NCBI GenBank assembly: GCA_016779565.1 | Contig: JADHNJ010000001.1 | Span: forward strand, 1-64,000 | Direction: 5' to 3' | From: Pseudomonadales bacterium | Lineage (GTDB): Bacteria; Pseudomonadota; Gammaproteobacteria; Pseudomonadales; Azotimanducaceae | Length of the DNA stretch: 64,000 bases | Shown: positions 3,261 to 14,170 of the stretch, in pieces | How the letters are laid out: each line of letters begins with the position of its first letter | Numbering within the stretch: position 1 is the first letter of the stretch | Notes under the pieces: model-generated | Told to the model about the DNA's origin: nothing | Databases searched by the model: none | What the model saw: only the letters and a program-made list of their open reading frames with translations | Translations under genes and position numbers: made by a program

Positions 3261-3989
3261 ATGCTAGATTTATTGCGCCAAAGCTTTTGGCAACCCTGCC
3301 TTTTGTGCGAGCAGCCGCAAAAGCAGCTCAGCCTAATTTGTGAGCCTTGCCAATTGGATCTTCCCTGGCTACCTTCCGGTTGCACCCAATGTGCGCTGCC
3401 TTGGCGTTACCACCCCAGCCAATCCCCATGCCGACAACCTGGGTGGCTCATCAACAATTGTAGGGCAACCCTCGCCTATCACTTCCCGGTGCCACAACTT
3501 ATCCATCAATTTAAACAACAGGCATCACTGACAACGGGTCGAGCCCTTGGCCTATGTCTGACTCAAAACACCCATTTTACAGGTACCGCGATTGACGCAC
3601 TGATACCGGTTCCCAGCTCACGCCAAACGCTGCGTTCACGAGGCTTTAATCCAGCAAAAATCCTTGCCGACACCATTGGTCATGCGCTGGGCATACCGGT
3701 CATGACGAACTGGGTGATCAAAACCGGCATCACCAAAGCCCAAAAATACAGATCTAGGGCTGAACGTCTAACGGTGTCCGAAAACCCTTTTCGGGCAAAA
3801 AAGCCTTGTACCGCGAAACGCATTGCCATAATTGATGACGTTATCACCACAATGACAACAGCGATCCAAGTGGCTGAGCCCTTAAAAGCCCAAGGTGTGC
3901 AGCACATCGAGATCTGGGCACCCTGCCGAACCCTGCCAAAGCTGACAACCTTAGTATCGCCATCGCATTCCCCAATTGAGATGCGATGA
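3261..3989 (+). CDS. ComF family protein / phosphoribosyltransferase-like
   Basis: N-terminal Cys pairs (CLLCEQ, CEPC, CTQC) and PRPP-binding-like motif IAIIDDVITTMTT. Confidence 0.9.
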   Translation: MLDLLRQSFWQPCLLCEQPQKQLSLICEPCQLDLPWLPSGCTQCALPWRYHPSQSPCRQPGWLINNCRATLAYHFPVPQLIHQFKQQASLTTGRALGLCLTQNTHFTGTAIDALIPVPSSRQTLRSRGFNPAKILADTIGHALGIPVMTNWVIKTGITKAQKYRSRAERLTVSENPFRAKKPCTAKRIAIIDDVITTMTTAIQVAEPLKAQGVQHIEIWAPCRTLPKLTTLVSPSHSPIEMR

Positions 3990-11671: not shown

Positions 11672-12088
11672 GTGCTATGGATTAAGGTCTTTCATCTGCT
11701 ATTTGTGATTGCCTGGATGGCGGGCGTTTTTTATCTGCCAAGAATTCTGGTGCACGCAGTTGAAGGTATGGCAGCCCAGGAGGATATTCGACGCCTAGTC
11801 ATTATGGCCTCGAAACTCTTGAAATTTTCTACCGTCATGATGGTGCTCGCGATAATTCCAGGACTGATCTTGTGGTTACACTTCGGTATTACAGGCGCTT
11901 GGTTGCATTGGAAACTCGTCTTTGTTGCTGCCCTGGGTTTATATCAATATCAATCTTATCGCTATGTCGTTTCACTTAGGGCGCAGCGAGTTATTCGGAC
12001 CTCGCTATTTTACAGAATCTACAATGAAGCCGCACTCATTGTGCTGGTGCCCATCCTCATCTTAGTCGTCTTTAAACCTGCCCTGTGA
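11672..12088 (+). CDS. hemJ: Protoporphyrinogen oxidase HemJ
   Basis: LWIKVFHLLFVIAWMAGVFYLPRILVH; 138 aa, multi-TM. Confidence 0.88.
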   Translation: MLWIKVFHLLFVIAWMAGVFYLPRILVHAVEGMAAQEDIRRLVIMASKLLKFSTVMMVLAIIPGLILWLHFGITGAWLHWKLVFVAALGLYQYQSYRYVVSLRAQRVIRTSLFYRIYNEAALIVLVPILILVVFKPAL

Positions 12089-12092
12089 CCGT

Positions 12093-12107
12093 CGCCGGCG
12101 TTCGGCG
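12093..12107 (+). terminator. Short hairpin after hemJ, followed by T-rich repeat DNA
   Basis: CGCCG-GCGTT-CGGCG stem-loop 5 bp after the hemJ stop, followed by TTTAGGGTTTT. Confidence 0.35.
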
Positions 12108-12116
12108 GATTTAGGG

Positions 12117-12200
12117 TTTTGGGTTTTGGGTTTTGGGTTTTAGGTTTTAGGTTTTAGGTTTTAGGTTTTAGGTTTTAGGTTTTAGGTTTTAGGTTTTAGG
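12117..12200 (+). repeat. Heptanucleotide tandem array (TTTTGGG)3(TTTTAGG)9, flanked on both sides by a TTTAGGG unit
   Basis: Twelve exact 7-bp units counted; flanking TTTAGGG at 12110-12116 and 12209-12215. Confidence 0.99.
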
Positions 12201-12277
12201 TTTTAATGTTTAGGGTTCTGAAGTTTTTCGATTCTAAATCTGTTTAGGCGAGCCAATACGATTCCCCGCACCTAGGC

Positions 12278-12286
12278 TGTTATAAT
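12278..12286 (+). promoter_or_regulatory. Candidate extended -10 promoter for syd-aroA
   Basis: TGTTATAAT = TGnTATAAT, 19 bp before the syd start; no good -35. Confidence 0.5.
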
Positions 12287-12304: not shown

Positions 12305-12874
12305 TTGAAGCAACTGCCTTTGATTGATCAGCATCTTACTCGCCTGACCGAACCCTTGTTTGCCGGCCTTGATAATCCTGTTTTCGCAACACCTTTGGAC
12401 GACTGGCGATCGCCGTGCGAAATCCGTACTGACGAAACCTTCAGCTATTGGCGCCCAATCGTACAGACACCTCGCATGAGTTTTGGACACTTCGAATCTG
12501 CCATTGATGTCGCCATTCATCCGGATCTTAAAGCATTCTACGGTAGCTTCTGGTCAGGTTCGCTTCCCTGCAGCTTTCAGCAGCAGCCTTTAGCCTTGAT
12601 ACAAATCTGGAACCCCGAGGATTTTGATCGGCTCATCAGCAATCTGATCGGACACTTTCTGAGTCAGCAACGTGCCGCAAGCGATCGGCTCACCTGGTTT
12701 ATCGGTACTTTTGAGGACGATTCAGAAGCGATGGTCAGTCTCGATAATACAACTGGCGAGATAGTTCAGGAGCTCCCTGGCCAAGGTTTTCAACAGCGCC
12801 TTGCCCCCGCTTTATCGGATTTCCTGAGGCTAATTTCGCTAGATCGCGCTAAACTCAATCCCGGAGAGCTCTAG
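12305..12874 (+). CDS. syd: SecY-interacting protein Syd
   Basis: RSPCEIRTDETFSYWRPIVQ, IDVAIHPDLKAFYGSFWSG, LIQIWNPEDFDRLISNLIGHFL, VSLDNTTGEI. Confidence 0.88.
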   Translation: MKQLPLIDQHLTRLTEPLFAGLDNPVFATPLDDWRSPCEIRTDETFSYWRPIVQTPRMSFGHFESAIDVAIHPDLKAFYGSFWSGSLPCSFQQQPLALIQIWNPEDFDRLISNLIGHFLSQQRAASDRLTWFIGTFEDDSEAMVSLDNTTGEIVQELPGQGFQQRLAPALSDFLRLISLDRAKLNPGEL

Positions 12875-12877
12875 CAC

Positions 12878-14170
12878 ATGACCAGCCTACTCACATTATC
12901 CCCCATTGCAAAAATCGGTGGCCAAATCGATCTGCCGGGTTCTAAGAGCCTAACCAACCGTGCGCTGCTACTCGCAGCAGTTGCTCACGGGAAAACCACC
13001 CTCAGCAATATTTTATTCAGCGACGACACCGATCGCATGATCCAAGCATTGAAAGCGCTCGGCACTGACCTCACCATCGACGCCCAAAACCATTCCTGCG
13101 AGGTAATCGGTCGCGCCGGCCCTTTCGACGCTCAAGCGACCGACCTCCATCTCGATCTGGGTAACGCCGGCACAGCATTGCGACCCCTCGTTGCAATGCT
13201 CTCCTTGTCAGAGGGCCGCTTTGTCATTGACGGCGATGAATATATGCGGGTTCGACCCATAAAGCACTTAACCGATGCGTTATCAAATTTGGGCGTCCCA
13301 ATCGAGTTCCTCGGTCAACCGGGATACCCACCTTTACAAATCAAAGGTGGTTACCCACAGGGTGGGGCCATCGAATTAAACGGGGATCTTTCAAGCCAAT
13401 ATCTTACAGCACTACTGATGGCGCTACCGCTGGCCCCAAACGATAGCACCATAAACATCGTTGGCGAGCTGGTTTCTAAGCCTTATGTCGATATGACGCT
13501 GGCGATCATGGCTAAGTTTGGTGTTAAGGCCGCGCATACTCGTTATCATCGCTTTGACGTTCCTGGCGCCCAGACATACCAGTCGCCAGGCCATCTGATG
13601 GTAGAGGGCGATGCGAGTACCGCAAGCTATTTTCTCGCCGCGGCGGCCATCCAAGGCGAGATTACCGTCACGGGCGTTGGTAGCGATTCTCTTCAAGGAG
13701 ATATTGCTTTTGCGGATGTACTCTCGGCGATGGGCGCTGCGGTCACAATAAAAGCGGACCGAGTTTCGGTGAGATCTACGGGCGTTTTAAACGCCATCAA
13801 CGCAGATCTAAACCACATCCCCGATGCGGCAATGACTGTCGCGATTCTCGCGCTATTCGCAAAAGGCACCACGACCATACGCAATGTTTACAATTGGCGA
13901 ATTAAGGAAACCGATCGCATGACGGCGATGGCCAACGAACTTCGCAAAGTGGGTGCCGCCGTCTCGACCACCGATGATAGTATTACCATCACACCCCCAG
14001 ACGAACTACTCCCAGCGTCGATCAGCACCTATGGCGACCATCGAATGGCCATGTGCTTTTCCCTACTCGCGTTGGCGCCTAAAGGCATCACGATTTGCGA
14101 CCCTGAGGTTACGAAAAAAACCTTTCCCGATTACTTTAATATTTTCAACGCCGTAACGACCCGCATCTAA
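12878..14170 (+). CDS. aroA: 3-phosphoshikimate 1-carboxyvinyltransferase
   Basis: LPGSKSLTNRALLLAA, LGNAGTALRPL, YGDHRMAMCFSLLAL. Confidence 0.97.
   Translation: MTSLLTLSPIAKIGGQIDLPGSKSLTNRALLLAAVAHGKTTLSNILFSDDTDRMIQALKALGTDLTIDAQNHSCEVIGRAGPFDAQATDLHLDLGNAGTALRPLVAMLSLSEGRFVIDGDEYMRVRPIKHLTDALSNLGVPIEFLGQPGYPPLQIKGGYPQGGAIELNGDLSSQYLTALLMALPLAPNDSTINIVGELVSKPYVDMTLAIMAKFGVKAAHTRYHRFDVPGAQTYQSPGHLMVEGDASTASYFLAAAAIQGEITVTGVGSDSLQGDIAFADVLSAMGAAVTIKADRVSVRSTGVLNAINADLNHIPDAAMTVAILALFAKGTTTIRNVYNWRIKETDRMTAMANELRKVGAAVSTTDDSITITPPDELLPASISTYGDHRMAMCFSLLALAPKGITICDPEVTKKTFPDYFNIFNAVTTRI

Follow-up and report, generated by a model that had tools for sequence, protein, structure and literature searches.

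In most prokaryotic genomes, long simple sequence repeats are most often heptanucleotides, according to Mrazek et al. (2007) as relayed in two later papers (PMC4679880, PMC4692102), in which polymerase slippage is given as the proposed reason and 7 nt is suggested to be the length contacted by DNA polymerase. Among intergenic heptamers, the G-rich GGGNATC and GGGGA(T/C)T repeats of Xanthomonas and Nostoc, which are G-quadruplex (G4)-forming and fold in vitro, consist of one unit used genome-wide (Rehm et al. 2015, PMC4692102). The TAACTGA direct repeats of marine Beggiatoaceae also share one unit, with 169 sets located mostly just upstream of start codons (MacGregor 2015, PMC4679880). The plant-type telomere is likewise a heptamer array, (TTTAGGG)n, and our literature search for bacterial TTTAGGG arrays returned plant and telomere papers.

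Here, we analyzed a heptamer array between hemJ and syd-aroA in the window, that is, the whole 64,000-nucleotide stretch of Pseudomonadales DNA under study. Direct reading of the 96 intergenic bases revealed a word repeated approximately 13 times (Table 1). Tandem Repeats Finder reported 96% matches and a score of 162, by far the highest of any tandem repeat in the window, where the runner-up scored 70. Within the array, 87 of the 89 lag-7 comparisons matched, and a run of 63 consecutive lag-7 matches is expected only ~1e-33 times per 64 kb. The length of the array is thus far beyond chance, and its 7-bp copies are head-to-tail and near-perfect, as in prokaryotic heptanucleotide simple sequence repeats. 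The first-pass annotation had described (TTTTGGG)3(TTTTAGG)9 with TTTAGGG at both ends in a 216-bp gap; the sequence and Tandem Repeats Finder both confirmed this structure, and the gap was correct, with hemJ and syd confirmed by Pfam. The array occupies nearly half of this gap. All three G-type units precede all nine A-type units, a perfect separation into two blocks that would arise by chance in 0.9% of cases if unit changes were independent. It had also been stated that the array closes all six reading frames. This holds for TTTTAGG and TTTAGGG repeats and for the array as a whole, which contains stops in all six frames, but (TTTTGGG)n is stop-free in every frame.

Table 1. Features of the hemJ-syd-aroA locus (positions in the window) and arrays at contig ends of the same genome.
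Feature	Position	Strand	Remark
hemJ, upstream gene	11672-12088	+	Pfam PF03653 (UPF0093)
Short GC stem-loop CGCCG-GCGTT-CGGCG, after hemJ and before the array	12093-12107	+	not flagged as terminator
Whole heptamer array	12110-12205	+	period 7, 13.6 copies
Left edge unit TTTAGGG	12110-12116	+	sequence reading
Putative G-quadruplex motif GGGTTTTGGGTTTTGGGTTTTGGG	12114-12137	+	sole such motif in the window
TTTTGGG x3 block	12117-12137	+	sequence reading
TTTTAGG x9 block	12138-12200	+	sequence reading
Partial unit TTTTA, array end	12201-12205	+	sequence reading
Decayed right edge, second TTTAGGG, out of register by one base	12209-12215	+	sequence reading
Extended -10 element TGTTATAAT, likely syd-aroA promoter	12278-12286	+	conserved in 7 genus relatives
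syd, downstream gene	12305-12874	+	Pfam PF07348
aroA	12878-14170	+	Pfam PF00275
Arrays near contig ends of this genome (G000)	L214, L269, L302, L304, L344		within 150 bp of end

Next, we compared the locus with those of relatives. The gene order hemJ-syd-aroA was common to this genome and nine genus relatives, whose hemJ-syd spacers span roughly 80-180 bp. We read all nine spacers and found no array of any kind in them, a scattered, lineage-specific occurrence as is typical of prokaryotic heptanucleotide repeats. The extended -10 element TGTTATAAT, in consensus form, was intact 72 bp downstream of the array, and the seven short-spacer relatives carried TGNTATNAT or a closely similar sequence at a near-constant distance from syd. 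Because the orthologous spacers lack the array and the extended -10 element is retained, the array does not belong to a conserved regulatory region; it is an insertion or expansion specific to this lineage, and the promoter element downstream of it is intact. Like the TAACTGA sets of Beggiatoaceae, it is an intergenic heptamer direct repeat; unlike them, it has no unit shared with other sites, and 100 bp separate its end from the start codon downstream.

The same comparison bears on whether the array could stem from misassembly or from contamination with eukaryotic (plant telomere) DNA, an explanation to which we give next to no credence. The assembly is fragmented (85 contigs, 81% complete), and repeat copy numbers can be wrong in such a case. 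However, the array is internal, lying 12 kb inside a 91-kb contig, and the contig join at the array is right because the gene order across it is conserved in all nine relatives, so that the artefactual join raised by the first-pass annotation found no backing. As for contamination, the plant telomere unit TTTAGGG is present as the edge unit only, and comparable arrays were found in the genomes of named isolates.

The resemblance to telomeres was then examined in 147 genomes, comprising this genome and its relatives. Three or more tandem TTTWRGG units, with one mismatch allowed, were found in 11 of the 147, and two scrambled heptamers of identical composition, used as the control, formed arrays in 9 and 2. 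Exact three-unit arrays of the telomere-like unit were present in ~8 places, compared with 4 and 1 for the scrambled units. A reversed-pattern control was uninformative, since TTTTGGG-type arrays are identical backwards. The telomere-like unit may therefore be modestly favoured at most, and the sequence of the unit may be somewhat relevant. A telomere was rejected as an explanation: the array is internal to a bacterial contig, its flanking genes are conserved, it has ~13 units of which the main ones differ from the plant unit, and other heptamers, including the composition-matched scrambled ones, also form arrays. Of the telomere-like character noted at first, only the resemblance of the edge units thus stands.

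Across the genus, the units varied by locus and genome and included TTTTGGG, TTTAGGG, TTTGAGG, TTTCTGG, GGGCTTT, and GGTGTTT. Among named genomes, runs of at least four TTTWRGG units numbered at least 117, and the matches listed came from Bacteroidota, cyanobacteria, proteobacteria, Patescibacteria, planctomycetes, and one archaeon. Kordia jejudonensis, which belongs to another phylum, carried a nearly identical and independent array, (TTTTGGG)2(TTTTAGG)8. In this species (L102), (TTTTGGG)74 and (TTTTGGG)2(TTTTAGG)8 were located at 2112-2629 and 3845-3914.

Long arrays were also observed in one relative (G013). Its contig C2 (L369) began, from the first bases on, with at least 220 perfect GGTGTTT copies that filled the 1.5 kb read, and whole-genome pattern counts of 467-494 suggested a total of ~3.3 kb of heptamer array in this genome. 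On contig C45 (L237, 3233-3963), ~57 copies of GCTGTGGC were directly followed by ~40 of TTTTGGG, among them a few TGTTGGG variants. On contig C38 (L265, 1166-1547), arrays with periods of 8, 6, 7, 7, and 8 adjoined one another in a single spacer within 400 bp, and their units were related (AAACCAGC, AAACCG, CCAAACG, CCAAACC, and CCAAAACC), indicating that the period itself drifts.

We further surveyed ~1.67 Mb of the 2.41-Mb assembly, read in stretches, for other short-period arrays. There were 25 separate arrays with periods of 5-10, among which 7 and 8 were the commonest, and most of them fell outside open reading frames. A second-order Markov simulated control yielded no arrays of periods 5-10, and no arrays of period 2-4 with at least 18 bases were present in the surveyed part. 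The units were mutually unrelated (TTTTAGG, CTGATCA, AGATAAG, CTGCTTA, AAAGCGGT, GCACCAGA, and TTTGTCCG, among others), and therefore it is the process that recurs rather than any particular sequence. The sole look-alike of the present array in the surveyed part was a TTTTTGG array on contig C39. A dispersed repeat family of the REP or MITE type, which consists of many copies of the same element, was accordingly rejected, and the genome search for such a family proposed by the first-pass annotation ended with this one similar array. Five of the 25 arrays lay no more than 150 bp from a contig end, whereas 0.3 were expected (P ~1e-5, ~17 times the expectation), indicating that such arrays tend to break assemblies, as expected if they are long or variable. 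The arrays showed no preference for a replication strand (11 vs 11), and no particular slippage step was indicated.

With respect to function, we considered the array as a G-quadruplex regulatory element, in which the four G3 tracts would fold in the DNA or in the 3' part of the hemJ transcript and would modulate transcription or RNA stability. The motif is canonical, is on the sense strand shortly past the hemJ stop, and has a precedent in the role proposed for the GGGNATC heptamers of Xanthomonas and Nostoc, with which the array shares a G-rich intergenic heptamer and four consecutive tracts of at least three G in this one part. However, TTTTAGG, which has no more than two G, accounts for nine of the 13 units; of 23 short-period arrays from this genome that we checked, just 2 carried the motif; and it was absent from the orthologous spacers. 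In addition, the unit is essentially confined to a single locus, in contrast to the one unit at many intergenic sites that characterizes the Xanthomonas and Nostoc family. We thus consider such an element unlikely.

A role as a protein-binding array, an insulator, or a terminator between hemJ and syd-aroA would suit a position between two transcription units, and a short GC stem precedes the array. Nevertheless, a terminator scan of the hemJ-syd spacer found no terminator-like site, as no GC-rich stem leading straight into a run of T was found; the terminator that had been suggested for this spacer was not borne out in spite of the stem. With a z of +1.96, the spacer RNA folded worse than almost every shuffled version of it, and an Rfam search of the spacer matched no family. 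The units of the other arrays in the genome are unrelated to this one, and the orthologous locus of the relatives carries no array, so that the proposed insulator or protein-binding array gained no support and we regard these roles as very unlikely. Nothing that we found supports a function specific to the array, and the evidence best supports a neutral spacer.

Therefore, we propose, with a probability of about 85%, that the array is a lineage-specific intergenic simple sequence repeat (a heptanucleotide microsatellite) that was expanded by slippage and most likely lacks a dedicated function. The seed would have been a T/G-rich stretch present by chance in the hemJ-syd spacer; once duplicated, it would have grown through replication slippage, 7 bp at a time, and a single A/G change would have divided the array into two blocks. 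The edges would subsequently have decayed, as edge units are presumably homogenised least, and the site between the end of hemJ and the intact syd-aroA promoter would tolerate insertions. The sorted blocks, the decayed edges, the restriction to one lineage, and the drift of the period in a related spacer are predictions of such stepwise slippage. The slippage mechanism, the neutrality, and a variation of length between strains are what we infer from these patterns. The initial suggestion of a non-coding, length-variable spacer is accordingly supported in part, by the orthologous spacers without the array and by the homogeneous, slippage-like blocks of units. As far as the findings of Mrazek et al. 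(2007) are relayed, the array agrees with the prokaryotic heptanucleotide repeats in its 7-bp period, its intergenic and non-coding location, its scattered occurrence, and the slippage origin proposed for them; no essential difference was seen, the present unit simply being telomere-like.

A broader explanation would be that replication or repair is prone to slippage throughout the genus, with a bias toward units of a T run and a G run, which would give rise to arrays of up to several kilobases, such as (GGTGTTT)n in one relative, and that some arrays, including the present one, have been recruited as spacers of variable length in front of core-gene promoters. We consider this improbable as well.

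Returning to the slippage-expanded microsatellite without a dedicated function, the array is most likely ordinary and belongs to the known prokaryotic heptamer repeats, with its resemblance to telomeres being coincidental. The single locus is of small importance, although its length may be useful for typing strains. The wider pattern of many short-period arrays with unrelated units, most often with periods of 7 and 8, and an excess near contig ends is in line with heptamer slippage as a general mutational tendency of bacteria, as described in the literature, and it provides one reason for the fragmented assembly of such genomes.
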